Positions 1 through 52,322 of a stretch of DNA of 52,322 bases are shown here, piece by piece. Source of the stretch: an uncultured Nitrospiraceae bacterium (GTDB lineage Bacteria > Nitrospirota > Thermodesulfovibrionia > Thermodesulfovibrionales > Dissulfurispiraceae); assembly GCA_903822005.1 (NCBI GenBank), contig CAIJNL010000020.1:1-52322 (forward strand), given 5' to 3'. The notes beneath the pieces are model-generated. The model saw only the letters and a list, made by a program, of their open reading frames with translations. It was not told the DNA's origin and searched no databases. How positions within the stretch are numbered: the stretch's first letter is position 1; each line of letters starts with the position of its first letter. The position numbers and the translations under genes are program-made.

Positions 1-74
1 CCCTCAAGGACAAGCTTGACCGCCTCTTCCTTAAACTGCTTGTCGTACTTCCTCCGACCTCCGTGTTCCTGCAT
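1..74 (-). CDS. IS3-family transposase OrfA, N-terminal fragment
   Basis: The frame opens with ATG at 74 behind GGGAGG and encodes a basic start including GGRRKYDKQFKEEAVKLV, typical of the N-terminal helix-turn-helix of IS3-type OrfA proteins that bind the element ends. Only about 24 codons are present before the window edge. The catalytic DDE part (OrfB) is outside. It lies 64 bases inside the element end at 140. Confidence 0.6.
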   Translation of the reverse strand, partial: MQEHGGRRKYDKQFKEEAVKLVLE

Positions 75-140
75 GTGACACCTCCCAAGGTTATATTTTA
101 CCTAACCTTTCGATGTGTCCGTCATTTCGGGGCAGGATCA
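1..140 (-). mobile_element. IS3-type insertion sequence, left-edge fragment
   Basis: The minus strand starts at 140 with TGATCCTGCCCC, a TG-starting end as expected of an IS terminus. It then runs through a short leader with a GGGAGG ribosome site into a transposase-like ORF that leaves the window. The rhs reading frame stops exactly at base 140, so the element appears to have inserted into that gene. Only one end is visible, so target duplication and inverted-repeat pairing cannot be checked. The family assignment rests on the first 24 residues of the ORF and is moderately sure. Confidence 0.65.
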
Positions 141-1382: not shown

Positions 1383-2231
1383 ATGCCGAACGGAATCCTT
1401 GCCTCAATGCGGACCAAATACCACACACTCTCCGCGGTCCAGAAGGTCATAGCAGACTATATTTTCAAGCATACCTCCGAAGTAATCCTCCTGCCGATCA
1501 GCGAACTCGCGGCCAAATGCGGAACCAGCGAGACTACCGTAATGCGCTTCCTCAGGAAGCTGGACTTCGATTCATACCAAGTCTTTCGGGTTAATATTGC
1601 ACAGGAAATCCCGCACGAACACCTTGAGTCCATATACGGTGAGATAGGCCGCGGGGATTCCATCGAGACAATCATGAAAAAGGTGATCGCCTCTACTGCC
1701 CGTTCCATAAAGGACCTGCAGCAGCTCGTTACCGGCGATGATATAAAGAAGGCCGTTGCATTGATGAAAGCGGCCAGACAGATTCTTTTCATCGGAGTGG
1801 GCTCTTCCTCTTATATAGCTTTTGACGCATACCACAAATTCCTGCGTCTCGGCATGCATGTAACTGCCACTGCCGACTCTCACCTCATGAACATGATAGC
1901 AAGCCATGCAACCGATAAGGACCTGGTAATCGCCGTCTCCCATTCCGGGGAAAGCAGGGACATTATCGACTGCGTAAAGATCGCAAAAAAAAGCGGGGCA
2001 AATCTGATCGTATTTACAAGCTACAGGAACTCGAGCATCACAAAATACGCGGATGTCACCCTGCTGACTTCTTCTAATGAAACGAAATACCGCTCTGACG
2101 CGCTTGTTTCCCGCATCCTTCAGCTCGTCATCATAGACATGCTTTATGTCTCAACCGTTCTCGGAATGGGTTCGGAAGGCGTAGAAAGGATAAACAGGTC
2201 GAGGCTCGCCGTTGCGGGCAAAAAGCGTTAG
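1383..2231 (+). CDS. MurR/RpiR-family transcriptional regulator
   Basis: A 282-residue regulator with an N-terminal RpiR helix-turn-helix (about residues 1-75; AAKCGTSETTVMRFLRKLDF is the recognition region) and a C-terminal SIS sugar-phosphate binding domain (about 115-245; FIGVGSSSYIAFDAYHKF and VIAVSHSGES). Such proteins sense phosphosugars and control adjacent catabolic genes. The AGGGGG at 1368-1373 abuts an ATG at 1374 but is nine bases from the in-frame ATG at 1383, so 1383 is chosen. It precedes the permease, dehydrogenase, aldolase and kinase genes on the same strand, so a phosphorylated intermediate of that pathway is the likely effector (inference). Confidence 0.9.
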   Translation: MPNGILASMRTKYHTLSAVQKVIADYIFKHTSEVILLPISELAAKCGTSETTVMRFLRKLDFDSYQVFRVNIAQEIPHEHLESIYGEIGRGDSIETIMKKVIASTARSIKDLQQLVTGDDIKKAVALMKAARQILFIGVGSSSYIAFDAYHKFLRLGMHVTATADSHLMNMIASHATDKDLVIAVSHSGESRDIIDCVKIAKKSGANLIVFTSYRNSSITKYADVTLLTSSNETKYRSDALVSRILQLVIIDMLYVSTVLGMGSEGVERINRSRLAVAGKKR

Positions 2232-2369
2232 CAACCCAAGCGCATTATATTGCGTAACCCGCAGGATTGAAAGGAGGAAAGCACAGCAGGATATTGGCGG
2301 TTAAGCACTTTTTTTGCGATAAATCTTACTGAAGCAGCTGTATTAACCTAAAACTGCAGGAGGTGCGGT

Positions 2370-3707
2370 ATGTATGATGTAACAACAATGTTGCTTATTT
2401 TAGTTGCCTCAATCGCTATGATCATCTTTCTGATTATGACTGTCAGGATGAGTGCTTTTCTGGCCTTAATCATCGCCTGTCTGTTCCTTGGCATTGCCAC
2501 AGGCATGCCTTTGGGTAAAATTGCGTCATCGATCGAGGCGGGCATGGGAGGAACGCTCGGTTTTCTAGCGACAATCCTCGCCCTCGGCACCATCCTCGGC
2601 AAGATGCTGGAAGTCTCCGGCGGGGCCGAACGTCTGGCCAGGACCCTTATCGATGCTTTCGGCAAAGAGAGGGCCCACTGGGCAATGATGTTCGTAGGGT
2701 TCCTCTGCGGCATACCTGTTTTTTTCCAGGTCGGCTTTGTCCTGTTAATACCCCTGGTATTCAGCGTCGCCCTCGAAGCGCGGATGTCGCTGGCTAAAAT
2801 CGGCATCCCCGTCGTGGCCGCCCTGATAACAGTCCATTGCATCGTACCGCCGCATCCTGCTGCCATGGCAATCACAGCCACTCTCCATGCCGATGTAGGA
2901 AAAGTTATCCTGTATGGTTTACTTGTAGGCTTGCCTGCTGCAGCCATAGCCGGTCCGATTTATGGTAATTTCATTTCAAAGTGGGTAAAGCTCGATCCTC
3001 CGGCGCATCTTTTCAAGACAGAACGCACCCCTGACGAAAAGCTCCCGCCCTTCGGCATGACACTCTTCACCGTCCTGCTCCCCCTGCTCATCATGGTGGG
3101 AAAGACAGTCGCCGAACTTTATCTGCCAAAAGACGCTGCTTATATGCCTTACGTCTCATTTTTCGGCAACCCGATCACCGCGCTGCTTATTTCCACATTC
3201 TTCGCTTACTGGACCCTCGGTTTCGCAAGGGGGCTGAACAGGGAAGACCTGTTGAAACTGACTGATGGCAGCTTCGGCCCTGTGGCAGGCATCATGCTTA
3301 TCATCGGCGCCGGCGGCGCGTTCAACAAGGTCATCCTTGACAGCGGTATGGGCAAGGTCATTGGCGCTGTTCTGGTAAGCCTGGACATGAGCCCGCTGAT
3401 AATGGCATGGGTAATCGCTATCGCGATGAGATTCTCTGTGGGTTCGGCAACGGTTGCGATGATGACTTCAGCAGGAATAATCCTGCCGGTACTGGCCGTG
3501 TATCCCAACCTGGACACCGCGCTGGTCTGTGTCGCGGTCGGAGCAGGGGCGATCGGCGCTTCGCATGTGAATGACTCTGGCCTGTGGATCGTAAAGGAAT
3601 ACTTTGGCATGTCCCTGACCGATACATTCAAGACCTGGACAGCCTCGACTACTATAGCCGCTGTCATAGGCCTGATAGGCACATTGATACTCGCACAATT
3701 TGTTTAG
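2370..3707 (+). CDS. GntP-family sugar-acid permease
   Basis: A 445-residue, very hydrophobic protein with about twelve membrane segments. It has family features such as LGKMLEVSGGAERLA near 73-87, GIPVFFQVGFVLLIPL near 114-129, VPPHPA near 163 and the C-terminal GASHVNDSGLWIVKEYF. GntP transporters import gluconate and related sugar acids or hydroxy acids with protons. The start at 2370 has a GGAGG ribosome site. It is the only transporter in the operon, which points to a sugar acid rather than a neutral sugar as substrate. The exact substrate cannot be read from sequence. Confidence 0.92.
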   Translation: MYDVTTMLLILVASIAMIIFLIMTVRMSAFLALIIACLFLGIATGMPLGKIASSIEAGMGGTLGFLATILALGTILGKMLEVSGGAERLARTLIDAFGKERAHWAMMFVGFLCGIPVFFQVGFVLLIPLVFSVALEARMSLAKIGIPVVAALITVHCIVPPHPAAMAITATLHADVGKVILYGLLVGLPAAAIAGPIYGNFISKWVKLDPPAHLFKTERTPDEKLPPFGMTLFTVLLPLLIMVGKTVAELYLPKDAAYMPYVSFFGNPITALLISTFFAYWTLGFARGLNREDLLKLTDGSFGPVAGIMLIIGAGGAFNKVILDSGMGKVIGAVLVSLDMSPLIMAWVIAIAMRFSVGSATVAMMTSAGIILPVLAVYPNLDTALVCVAVGAGAIGASHVNDSGLWIVKEYFGMSLTDTFKTWTASTTIAAVIGLIGTLILAQFV

Positions 3708-3795: not shown

Positions 3796-4878
3796 ATGAA
3801 AATACTTATATCGGGTGATGCAATGATCCCGGGAGCCGGCTTCAAAAAAGCCTGCGATGAACTCATGGTCAAAGATAAAAACATCGTGGTCAACGACTGG
3901 GAGAGCGACCCCGTCAACCTGCAGAACCGGCGTCTCCCAATCGAGAAACAGGGACCGACCGCTGAACCGGTTCTGTCGGTCTTCCAGAATGCGGACAAAG
4001 ACACAGAGATGCTGCTCATACTGTTCGCACCTGTATCTGCAGCTACCATGGATGCCATGCCGAACCTGCGGCTTGTAGGAGCCGCCCGCGCCGGGCAAGA
4101 AAATGTTGATGTAGCGGCAGCAACCGAACGCGGAATCGTGGTGCACAACATCATGGGCAGAAACGCTCATGCCGTATCGGATTTTGCCATCGGACTTCTT
4201 TTTGCGGAGGCCAGGAACATTGCCAGATCGCACCATTCACTCAAGCAGGAAGTATGGCAAAAGAAGTTCGCAAATTCAGAATTCACGCCAGAGATAACGG
4301 GCAAGACCCTTGGACTGGTAGGTTTCGGATACATCGGAAAACTTGTTGCCCAGAAGCTTGCGGGGTTCAACCTTAAAATACTGGTATATGATCCGTATGT
4401 TTCGGAAGAGACCCTCCGTGAGTCCAACGCGATCAAGGTTTCCAAAGAGGAGCTATTCAAACAGTCTGACTTTGTCTCTATCCATGCCAGGCTGACTGAA
4501 GACACAAAAGGACTTATCGGCAAAGCCGAACTCAGCCTCATGAAGCCGACCGCCTTACTTATCAATACTGCCAGGGCCGGCCTTATCGATGAAGACGCAC
4601 TCTTTGATGCGCTCAAAAACAGACGCATCGGCGGCGCGGCACTCGACGTGCATTCTTCGGAGCCCCTGCAAAAGGGAAGCAAATGGCTCGAACTCGACAA
4701 TGTCACCCTCACCTCGCACATCGCGGGTACGACTGCCGAGGCGCTCACTAATTCGCCCTATCTTCTGGTCCGCGACATCAATAAACTGCTGACCGGAGGA
4801 TCGCCGCAATTCGTACTGAATCCGAAGGTGCTCGAACATCCGAAGGCAAAGGCGTGGCTGGCCTCTCTGAATAAGTAA
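3796..4878 (+). CDS. D-isomer-specific 2-hydroxyacid dehydrogenase family protein
   Basis: A 360-residue NAD(P)-dependent dehydrogenase of the phosphoglycerate dehydrogenase-like family. The substrate domain is split around a Rossmann fold (GLVGFGYIGKLVAQ at about 173-186). The catalytic triad is visible as Arg260 in INTARAGLIDED, Glu289 in HSSEP and His308 in SHIAG. The N-terminus is somewhat longer than usual. GGAGAG precedes the start. Located between a GntP permease and an aldolase, it probably oxidises the imported hydroxy acid, or the reverse, before phosphorylation and cleavage. It is not serA: no ACT or intervening domain is present, and the context is catabolic. Confidence 0.88.
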   Translation: MKILISGDAMIPGAGFKKACDELMVKDKNIVVNDWESDPVNLQNRRLPIEKQGPTAEPVLSVFQNADKDTEMLLILFAPVSAATMDAMPNLRLVGAARAGQENVDVAAATERGIVVHNIMGRNAHAVSDFAIGLLFAEARNIARSHHSLKQEVWQKKFANSEFTPEITGKTLGLVGFGYIGKLVAQKLAGFNLKILVYDPYVSEETLRESNAIKVSKEELFKQSDFVSIHARLTEDTKGLIGKAELSLMKPTALLINTARAGLIDEDALFDALKNRRIGGAALDVHSSEPLQKGSKWLELDNVTLTSHIAGTTAEALTNSPYLLVRDINKLLTGGSPQFVLNPKVLEHPKAKAWLASLNK

Positions 4879-4931
4879 ATCAGCCGGCATTATGGGCGTA
4901 GAACGAATCGAAAAGACTGGAGGAGTTCATT

Positions 4932-5774
4932 ATGTTAGTCAATATGAATCAGGTCCTTGTGCCTGCCAGGCAGCAGGGCATAGCCATTGCAGCATTTAAC
5001 ATCTACAATCTCGAAACTGCCGAAGCGGTTTACCGCGCAGCCGTTGATCTAAATTCGCCTGTGATCTTTGCCTTCGGCGAACAGTACATCAAAGTCGCTA
5101 ACATAAAGATCATTGCTACAATTGTGCAGGAATTTGCGGGCCGCACCGGCCTTCCGATGGTGCTGCATCTCGATCACTGCAAGTCAATAGATGTGATATA
5201 CAAGGCCGTACAGGCCGGGTTTACTTCTGTGATGTTCGACGGCTCGAAACTCTCGTTTGCCGACAACCTCGCGCAGACGAAAGATGTGGTCAAGTTCGCC
5301 CACAGCGTCGGCGTAACGGTCGAGGCCGAATTGGGCTCAGTGCCTTTTGATCATAAGCAGAGCGAAATCCCTGAAGAGTATCTTACTAAAGTTGATGAGG
5401 CGGTGCGTTTTGTCTCTGAAACCAAAGTGGATGCCCTGGCAATTGCGGTCGGGACCGCGCATGGCGAGTACAAGGGACGCCCCAAGATTTTTCATGACCG
5501 GATAGAGGAAATTGCCGCAAAGGTTTCGATACCCCTTGTGCTGCATGGAGGCTCGGGTGTTCCGGATGAGGACATCCAGAAGGCAATGCGCCAGGGTGTG
5601 TCGAAAATAAATGTGAACACACAGATATCTTCGGTTGCCGTAAAAAAACTGAAGGCCCTTTGCGCCAAAGAAAAGCCGGGCCATCTCTCGGACCTTATGC
5701 ACGAAGCCGAGGAGGCCATGGTCGAAGAGGTAAAGCTCTTTATCAAACTCTTCAGGAATGACGCGGGAGCATAA
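4932..5774 (+). CDS. Class II (zinc) ketose-bisphosphate aldolase
   Basis: A 280-residue class II aldolase of the GatY/KbaY/FbaA type. Zinc ligands and catalytic residues are visible: HLDHCKS at 79-85 (Asp81, His82), EAELG at 131-135, His177 in GTAHGEYKG and His205 in LHGGSG. The phosphate-binding INVNT motif lies near 222. It cleaves a phosphorylated ketose or keto acid to a triose phosphate plus an aldehyde or pyruvate-like product. A GGAGGAG ribosome site precedes the start. Its place between dehydrogenase and kinase makes it the cleavage step of the operon's pathway. A role in glycolysis is less likely in this setting. Confidence 0.9.
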   Translation: MLVNMNQVLVPARQQGIAIAAFNIYNLETAEAVYRAAVDLNSPVIFAFGEQYIKVANIKIIATIVQEFAGRTGLPMVLHLDHCKSIDVIYKAVQAGFTSVMFDGSKLSFADNLAQTKDVVKFAHSVGVTVEAELGSVPFDHKQSEIPEEYLTKVDEAVRFVSETKVDALAIAVGTAHGEYKGRPKIFHDRIEEIAAKVSIPLVLHGGSGVPDEDIQKAMRQGVSKINVNTQISSVAVKKLKALCAKEKPGHLSDLMHEAEEAMVEEVKLFIKLFRNDAGA

Positions 5775-5815
5775 TTTGCTCCTGTTTCATCAACCATAAA
5801 ACAAGGGAGATTATC

Positions 5816-7384
5816 ATGTCAGAAACCAAATATATTGCATGTCTTGATGTGGGAACAACCGGCTGCCGCACCATAATTTATTCGAGCAGGGGGAAGATCT
5901 GCAGCGAGGCCTATGAAGAATACGCCAGCATTTTCCTGTCGCCAACATGGATTGACCATGATCCGGCCACCTGGCTCAAGGCAATGCGCAACACCATGAA
6001 GCAGGCGATCAAGCTCTTCCCCGGCGAGGCAAGTGATATCGCTGCAATCAGCGTGATCTCGCAAAGGTCAACTTTAATCCCTGTTGACAAGGATGGAAAT
6101 CCTCTCGACAACGCGATCCTCTGGCAGGACAAGCGTGCCATAGGCCAGGCCGATTTCATTCGCAAGGAACTCGGTCCAGAATATGTTTATCAGAAGACCG
6201 GCCTGCGTATCGATGCTTATTTTTCGCTGCCTAAACTCTTATGGATGAAAGAGAACAAGCCACATGTATTCAAGGATGCCTTTAAACTCCTTACTGTCAG
6301 CGATTTCATCATACATCACCTGACGGGCGAATTCATCACCGACTGGACCCAGGCATCACGAACCATGCTGTTCAATATCAGCGAACTGAAATGGGACGCG
6401 GAACTCTGCGCAAAGTTCGGAATCCCGATAGAAAAGCTGGCAAAGGCTGTACCCTCAGGTACAATTGCCGGCACTCTCAAAAAGTCTTTTCAATCAGAGT
6501 TTAACCTGAGGGCTGACATCCCTGTAATATCCGTGGGCGGCGATCAGCAGTCAGCGGCAGTTGGACTCGGGGTGGTCGTTCCGGGACTGATCTGCGCCAA
6601 CACCGGCACTGGCTCCTTTATTCTGGCCCATTCAGAGCGCCCTGCCTTTGACAAGCAGCAGCGGGTGGTCTGCACAGCCTCGGCAGTTGCCGGAAAGTGG
6701 TTGATGGAAGCCGGCATATACACTTCAGGGTCAGTCTACCGCTGGTTCCGCGACAACTTCTCCATGGTCGAAACCAGCGCGGCGAAAGAGCTGAACATCG
6801 ATGCGTATGATATTCTGAACAGCGAGGTAAAGAATACGCGCCCCGGCGCAGAGGGAATTCTTATGATCCCTCATTTCGCGGGCTCTGCCGCACCATACTG
6901 GGACCCGACTGCTGTCGGTCTCATCTTTGGTTGCACCCTCGGTCACAAGCGCTCGCAGGTCATACGCGGACTGCTTGAGGGGATCTGCTTTGAGATATGC
7001 AAAAATATCCGCATCATCGAGTCCCTGACAAACGAAATCACAGAGATCCGGGTCAGCGGCGGCGCGACTCGTTCCACAACCTTTAACCAGATACAGGCTG
7101 ACGTTTACGGCAAAACAGTGCTGAGGAGCGTTTCCGAGCAGTCTTCTGCCCTTGGGGCCATGCTTGTGGCGGCCACCAGCATCGGTTTGTATCCGGACAT
7201 TGCAACGGCTGTGCGTGAGGGCGTCTCGTTTGACAACCACAACAAAAAAATGCCCGATGCAGAGACACATGAGCTTTATGATAAAATGCTCGATCTGCAT
7301 AATGAGCTTTATTTGGCGCTCGCTTCGCACAAGATCTATGACAAGGCGCGTGAGCTCAGGGAATTTATAAAGAGCAAGGGATAG
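5816..7384 (+). CDS. FGGY-family carbohydrate kinase
   Basis: A 522-residue sugar kinase with the ASKHA fold. The N-terminal phosphate loop is DVGTTGCRT (11-19); the first domain has ILWQDKRA near 102-109. The second domain carries ANTGTGSFIL near 260 and RVSGGATRS near 408, followed by SSALGAMLVAA. Closest in type to xylulokinase or the LsrK/lyxulokinase branch, but the substrate residues cannot be assigned. GGGAG precedes the start. As last gene of the operon it would phosphorylate the substrate before the class II aldolase acts. Confidence 0.88.
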   Translation: MSETKYIACLDVGTTGCRTIIYSSRGKICSEAYEEYASIFLSPTWIDHDPATWLKAMRNTMKQAIKLFPGEASDIAAISVISQRSTLIPVDKDGNPLDNAILWQDKRAIGQADFIRKELGPEYVYQKTGLRIDAYFSLPKLLWMKENKPHVFKDAFKLLTVSDFIIHHLTGEFITDWTQASRTMLFNISELKWDAELCAKFGIPIEKLAKAVPSGTIAGTLKKSFQSEFNLRADIPVISVGGDQQSAAVGLGVVVPGLICANTGTGSFILAHSERPAFDKQQRVVCTASAVAGKWLMEAGIYTSGSVYRWFRDNFSMVETSAAKELNIDAYDILNSEVKNTRPGAEGILMIPHFAGSAAPYWDPTAVGLIFGCTLGHKRSQVIRGLLEGICFEICKNIRIIESLTNEITEIRVSGGATRSTTFNQIQADVYGKTVLRSVSEQSSALGAMLVAATSIGLYPDIATAVREGVSFDNHNKKMPDAETHELYDKMLDLHNELYLALASHKIYDKARELREFIKSKG

Positions 7385-51667: not shown

Positions 51668-52182
51668 TTAATATCCAACTTCTCGCCCTGTCTCGCCCTC
51701 GGATCTCGGCAAGTAATTATTTATGCATTTGCTGTTAATGCGATAGATGCCGCTATTTTGTTTAACAAATTCCACACTGGTTCCAAGAATATGATTAACA
51801 AAGCCTAAGGATAATTCCTCGCCACCTGCTCTATTTCTCAAAACTTCATAGACAAGGAAAGCTGAGATGTCTCTTTCTTTAAGTAGGGACCATGATTTGG
51901 CAAACTCAATAACATTATTTTTTTTGGATACATAATCATCAATGTTGTCCTTTACAGTATATGTGGCTGGCGCAGTCCTAATAAATTCGAGACTATTAGA
52001 TAATCTTTGAGCAATAGTATATTCAGGATATTCTCTGTTCTTTCGTATCTCTTTGAGTACATCTCGAACATGCATGGGTTTCTTGGAGTGGGCAAGTATT
52101 TCATTAATTATCTCATCCAGTGATAACCTATCCGTGTTACTGCTGTTCTCCTTAACAGTCCCAATCTCAAACTTTTTATAAC
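51668..52182 (-). pseudogene. HARE-HTH-like protein, 5' end lost at a mobile element
   Basis: The frame is open from the right-hand repeat array to the stop at 51668. The first in-frame ATG is at 52075 and lies within a recognisable unit: LSLDEIINEILAHSKKPMHV, then VLKEIRKNREYPEYTIAQRL and ATYTVKDN. This resembles the HARE-type winged helix found with restriction and chromatin-like proteins. The C-terminal 80 residues are unassigned. There is no start codon or ribosome site before the domain, and the sequence upstream of about 52183 belongs to the periodic array, so the gene is probably truncated. Low GC against its neighbours suggests acquired DNA. Confidence 0.5.
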
Positions 52183-52187
52183 TGTTA

Positions 52188-52313
52188 CGTCCCAGCCACT
52201 CGGTACCGATTTTAGGGGGGCAAATCCCACCTAACCGGTACCAGTTCTAAGGTATCCAATCCCACCAAAACGAGACCAGTTTATCAGGGTTTAATCCCAG
52301 GCAAACGAGACCA
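52188..52313. repeat. Array of four 21-bp units at 35-bp spacing (IS21-type end)
   Basis: Units begin at 52188, 52223, 52258 and 52293, exactly 35 bases apart: CGTCCCAGCCACTCGGTACC, AATCCCACCTAACCGGTACC, AATCCCACCAAAACGAGACC and AATCCCAGGCAAACGAGACC (each plus one more base). The outermost is the most diverged. Spaced direct repeats inside one end are a known property of IS21-family elements, where they bind the transposase. A TG at 52183 could be the tip. No transposase is in view. Confidence 0.6.
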
Positions 52314-52322
52314 CCTGTAAGA

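Follow-up and report, generated by a model that had tools for sequence, protein, structure and literature searches.

The junction at the right end of the window

We analyzed a 52,322-bp stretch of DNA from an uncultured Nitrospiraceae bacterium (hereafter, the window), which constitutes contig 20 (C20) of a 48-contig, 3.23-Mb assembly (the window genome, G000). Close to its right end, a minus-strand coding sequence is cut by 140 bp that carry an array of short repeats and that run up to the last base of the contig. The features at this locus are:

51668..52182, minus strand: C-terminal gene fragment, cut by the element at 52182/52183
52183..52322, plus strand: IS21-type element, left (istA-side) end, with TG at 52183 as its first bases and cut by the contig end
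52183..52195, plus strand: terminal inverted repeat TGTTACGTCCCAG, with the right-end counterpart TGTCACGTCCCAG
52188..52208, plus strand: array unit L1, more diverged but in register
52223..52243, plus strand: array unit L2, from the repeat finder
52258..52278, plus strand: array unit L3, from the repeat finder
52293..52313, plus strand: array unit L4, from the repeat finder

The initial annotation of this DNA had described four 21-bp units at exactly 35-bp spacing, located on the 5' side of a HARE-HTH-like frame that lacks a start, and both statements were confirmed. The units begin at 52188, 52223, 52258 and 52293. At a period of 35, the four 21-bp segments reach a column score of 69, whereas dinucleotide shuffling of the 140 bp, repeated 500 times and scored at any period from 22 to 39, gave at most 56 (0/500 reached 69). 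When a matrix derived from 18 units (taken from both ends of the element in three genomes) is used to score both strands of the window, the array units are the four top sites (30.0, 29.6, 27.7 and 22.4, with the next site at 17.6), a result that is partly circular, as four of the 18 units are the window's own. Nine of the 21 positions are invariant among the 18 units: TCCCA at positions 3-7, A at 11, G at 15 and CC at 19-20. Identity among three left ends is 83-89% within the units and 74-81% within the spacers, a modest difference. A promoter scan of the junction returned three promoter-like sites versus 2.0 in shuffled sequence, a terminator scan at the same place found none, and the 140-bp end had no match in a search of plasmid DNA.

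Contig ends, right ends and relatives of the element

A search of the window genome with the 140 bp at 52183-52322 gave five matches, all identical in sequence and every one at a contig end:

C20 (the window), end: 140 bp
C21, end: 140 bp
C22, end: 140 bp
C25, start: 140 bp
C26, end: 139 bp

Over the 60 bases that precede the TG at 52183 and its equivalents, 9-23 of 60 positions agree between pairs of these copies, so that the five flanks are unrelated. The outermost 250 bases at each of the genome's 96 contig ends were compared, and we found nine families of ends with 138-141 bp in common (two diverged members share less, 39 and about 50 bp), which together make up 59 of the 96 ends. Overlaps of 139-141 bp suggest a de Bruijn assembly, presumably with k = 141, that breaks at repeats. 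The window would therefore stop at 52322 because the assembly broke at a repeat, 140 bp into the element, and the element thus explains the abrupt end of the window.

By their appearance, the shared families other than the array-bearing one look like insertion-sequence ends. The first 140 bp of the window (1-140) also resemble such an end, with 140-141 bp common to five contig ends, and read into a frame, MQEHGGRRKYDKQFKEEAVKLVLE, which we take to be an IS3-type orfA. The two largest families, with 15 and 13 ends and one diverged member each, look as though they belong to a single additional IS21-type element, one family for each end, in which the repeats read ATCGGCGT...TTGACCCACC. One locus on C24 (L122, G000:C24 15000-21463) contains, at about 3916-6391, a distant istA-istB pair, both genes above the Pfam cut-off, and a copy of a large-family end at 6327; as listed, the istA frame continues across this end, and the locus apparently consists of nested elements.

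The counterpart of the array-bearing end is a right-end family of six contig ends of the window genome, which begin with TGTCACGTCCCAG (versus TGTTACGTCCCAG at the left) and share TGT(C/T)ACGTCCCAG. This family holds two units, 25 bp apart. Read inwards, the right end encodes FKGRSYRLKGKIEVKNVDLKIRKQ and then a stop, and all six ends encode an IstB C-terminus that is 87% identical, over 23-24 residues, to residues 230/231-253 of the IstB of a related genome, G025. In keeping with the IS21 family, the element has inverted repeats at its TG...CA termini as well as subterminal direct repeats.

Two genomes from the window genome's family, G025 and G017, carry elements of 2573 and 2568 bp in which istA and istB are located directly beyond the same array, and the left end in the window is 85% identical to theirs. 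Besides the left array and the right pair, they carry istA (525 and 530 aa) and istB (253-258 aa, depending on which start is used); it is in these relatives that the istA-istB order is observed. The G025 IstB scores above the cut-offs of PF01695 and NF038214 in a family search. The G025 IstA is above the cut-off of PF22483 (Mu-transpos_C_2), slightly below that of rve (30.2 versus the Pfam cut-off of 32.6), and reaches 158.5 versus a cut-off of 160 with the NCBIfam IS21 model NF033546; a search of solved structures at E 0.001 matched it to two entries alone, 8q4d and 8b4h, both of the IS5376 transposase (E about 1e-18). With istA and istB beyond the same array in two relatives and an IstB C-terminus at six of six right ends, the earlier reading of the array as an end of IS21 type holds up. 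In the assembly itself, no transposase gene comes after the array, as the contig ends at that point.

When 115 stretches of the window genome (a part of the whole) were searched with the G025 IstA and IstB, the element interior was not found, and the only other match was on C24, to a distant copy of IS21 type (25-30% and 37%, respectively). Of the matches from family searches of the whole window genome, one to rve and three to PF01695, none adjoins the array. As the interior is not seen in this genome, the end could in principle belong to a larger composite transposon or to a Tn7- or Mu-like transposon with cargo rather than to a simple insertion sequence, and Mu and Tn7 do have comparable arrays of three to five sites on one end. 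However, in two relatives a single contig holds both ends, with istA and istB within 2.57 kb, and we consider a cargo-bearing transposon very improbable.

Target duplications in the IS21 family measure about 4-8 bp. We compared the junctions in all 30 combinations of left and right ends (5 × 6), among which about 0.007 pairs sharing at least 6 bp are expected. Four pairs share 6-7 bp and the remaining 26 share 0 to 3 bp, which assigns a partner right end to three of the five left ends:

C22/C17: 7 bp
C25/C3: 6 bp
C21/C9: 7 bp, or C21/C16: 6 bp

At the empty site obtained from C22/C17, the junction is spanned by a stop-to-stop frame of 232 codons, presumably DUF4145-like; at the other joins, no frame was judged to be restored. 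Among the six right ends, no matching partner was found for the left ends of the window (best 1 bp) and of C26 (best 3 bp). The relatives' copies with both ends on one contig, four of four, share 0, 0, 0 and 1 bp (two of them are internally deleted); rearrangement between copies, decay or mis-joining by the assembler may account for these missing duplications.

With its left end unpaired and the 5' part of the cut gene not found, the window might be thought to contain a binning or assembly artefact in which an element end was joined to a foreign contig. Yet four other contigs end alike, and breaks at repeats would be the ordinary cause of such ends; there is, in our estimate, only a slight chance that the junction is artefactual.

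The cut gene and the neighbours of its intact homologues

The fragment at 51668-52182 matches the HARE-HTH model PF05066 with E = 4.5e-4 and 21.0 bits, below the Pfam cut-off of 25.9, whereas an intact homologue reaches 37.7 bits, above the cut-off. This homologue, a 647-aa protein with two alpha-CTD stretches, a sigma-70 region 4 and a HARE-HTH domain, is encoded by Nitrospirae bacterium DP16D_bin.35 (SCQE01000048.1, here G026:C84), where the gene is whole, unlike the fragment in the window. The fragment (151 residues kept) is 45-46% identical to residues 493-645 of the homologue, so that roughly three quarters of the gene would lie beyond the insertion; judged from this alignment, the fragment is the C-terminal quarter of a protein of about 650 aa. 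The homology stops no more than one codon short of the element edge. The minus-strand frame is open across the junction into the element, where it ends at a stop without a start; its first ATG, GTG or TTG occurs only at 52075, and that ATG is inside the HARE-HTH match. The gene is therefore truncated by the insertion, as had been proposed, and we looked for an intact start within the array and found none. A protein search for the front part of the cut gene did not find it in the assembly; besides the window, this search matched only three sigma-like sequences and one alpha-CTD in the window genome. At E 0.001, Pfam gave no HARE-HTH match in that genome.

We rejected, as less credible than either of the two rivals above, a reading in which the array is native to the HARE locus, as a regulatory or CRISPR-like repeat, and the frame is a short, separate gene with its own start (the in-frame ATG at 52075 yields a 135-aa frame), since an identical 139-140 bp abuts five unrelated flanks, the homologues align up to the element edge while the intact one extends far upstream, and the ATG falls within the HARE match.

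The initial annotation had also called the host gene AT-rich and suggested that it came from a restriction or defence locus. The first part stands: the fragment has a GC content of 37% versus 51% for the window, and 0.5% of 515-bp segments of the window (step 50) are as low or lower. The second part is possible, with no nuclease domain found by Pfam in the intact homologue and no whole known defence system found. At E 1e-6, the fragment has a match in 4 of 395 genomes of a phylum sample, the window genome included. Neither the intact homologue (P0001, E limit 1e-20) nor the fragment matched plasmids, and a scan of the genome collection with P0001 returned only its own record. In one of the four genomes (L129, G123:C104), the HARE homologue at 1480-3248 is split into two frames of 410 and 165 aa.

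The intact homologue and its neighbours, which the earlier annotation had proposed to look for, were found in G026, where the whole gene is located between a putative ATPase gene and a Fic gene:

G026:C84 (L116, 8000-27000), 4648-9911: 207-aa protein; 648-aa protein, presumably a GHKL-like ATPase; alpha-CTD/sigma-4/HARE-HTH protein; Fic

We take the 648-aa neighbour to be GHKL-ATPase-like from its motifs. It had no match among Pfam, PADLOC or NCBIfam models, its best hit among solved structures (E 0.064) was not convincing, and plasmids gave one partial match of 26%, from Ensifer. This neighbour is present in 2 of 395 genomes, both of which carry the HARE gene. The second is G123, where a C-terminal part, 73% identical, is located upstream of the HARE homologue and the remainder is on another contig; small genes that we take to be nucleotidyltransferase-like and HEPN-like are also nearby. 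No match to the ATPase was found in G278, the third genome with the HARE gene, or in the window genome.

The Fic protein, which is a neighbour in G026 and not a gene of the window, matches the PADLOC models SoFic and PDC-S04. The cut fragment itself matched no PADLOC model at E 0.001, and its homologues matched only MzaA/PglW, through their alpha-CTD and sigma-4 stretches. Fusions of HARE-HTH to restriction nucleases are described in PMC10853773 and PMC12839542. Together with the patchy distribution and the low GC content, this literature fits a possible role of the cut gene in conflict. The gene row in G026 is possibly an undescribed conflict system, part of which is present in G123; in the accessible portions of the HARE-HTH literature that we searched, we found no description of a pair formed by a GHKL-like ATPase and an RNA-polymerase-like/HARE-HTH protein. 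It is to this patchy gene pair that the cut gene points.

Unit spacing and comparison with known IS21 elements

A match to the left end is present in 4 of the 31 genomes of the family and in 11 of the 395 genomes of the phylum sample, for which up to two candidates were scored in each genome; both counts include the window genome. The searches behind these counts yielded 18 loci outside the window genome, 17 of which were scanned with the 18-unit matrix (L145 overlaps L142 and was left out); five of the scanned loci belong to G025 or G017, both of which contributed units to the matrix. In 13 of the 17 loci, three to five neighbouring units follow one another at intervals of 35 bp; the weakest of these 13 (L144) includes one unit of only 11.3 bits. 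L110 has two units at 35 bp, and three loci have a single unit, two of which a contig end cuts off at 55 bp. A right end was found at two loci, L110 and L135, and both carry a right pair at 25 bp, as do the three genomes used for the matrix.

Both of these loci are internally deleted relatives. L135 (G345:C71, 1459-2947) measures 1489 bp and has five left units, and its istA-like and istB-like sequences are fused in a single 402-aa frame. L110 (G022:C66, reverse strand) measures 1274 bp and retains both ends; the only frame of at least 100 aa in its interior is a 115-aa istA-like remnant.

We are confident that an IS21-type element has interrupted an accessory gene for an alpha-CTD/sigma-4/HARE-HTH protein by inserting within its coding sequence, that the window ends 140 bp into this element, and that the four 21-bp units are most likely binding sites of IstA. 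We see here ordinary insertion-sequence biology combined with a break in the assembly, and a presumed array of transposase-binding sites that is neat and unusually regular. The element would resemble that of its relatives, i.e., about 2.57 kb with terminal TG...CA, a putative DDE transposase (istA) and a putative AAA+ helper (istB), and the window genome holds at least six copies. We infer such an interior for these copies, as well as their current mobility and the loss of function of the cut gene. By analogy with IS5376, IstA would bind two or more units per end and pair the ends, and IstA with IstB would then join them to target DNA, leaving the 6-7 bp duplications.

The spacings of 35 bp at the left and 25 bp at the right differ by about one helical turn, which would place the sites on the same side of the DNA. 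We tentatively propose, as a possibility we hold to be rather unlikely, an IS21 subgroup with strongly asymmetric ends, in which a left tandem of three to five IstA sites at 35 bp stands opposite a right pair at 25 bp, and in which extra IstA loaded at the left in one helical phase serves as an orientation signal. If true, this would be a signal like that of Mu or Tn7 and would go beyond the two-plus-two repeats of the prototype. The third and fourth left units may serve to load further subunits, to control istA or to signal orientation. The conserved spacing also yields a testable idea on the number of transposase subunits loaded per IS21 end, and a spacing of 35 bp at the left with 24-25 bp at the right offers a simple handle for annotating this subgroup in fragmented genomes.

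PMC10122671 describes IS5376, the IS21 prototype, as having two repeats per end (L1/L2 and R1/R2; elsewhere "usually at least two") and target duplications of 5 bp, with IstA requiring two complete repeats per end and integration requiring IstB. The element at our locus is like IS5376 in its istB gene (an AAA+ helper), its terminal CA, its direct-repeat ends and its short target duplications and, judged from its relatives, presumably also in an istA gene for a DDE transposase; the G025 IstA matches the solved transposase of IS5376 in sequence. Unlike IS5376 as that paper presents it, it has four left units at 35 bp, two right units at 25 bp and duplications of 6-7 bp; the left-end units are more numerous than in the prototype as described there. 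A left array at 35 bp may already have been described in the IS21 literature. Also close is an IS21-like element on the Bdellovibrio plasmid AP029178.1, with an IstA 43% identical and an IstB annotated as ISMac3 family, in which the left units (AATCCCACG...) are spaced at exactly 35 bp and the right repeats at 24 bp, and in which three left units were detected versus the four found here.
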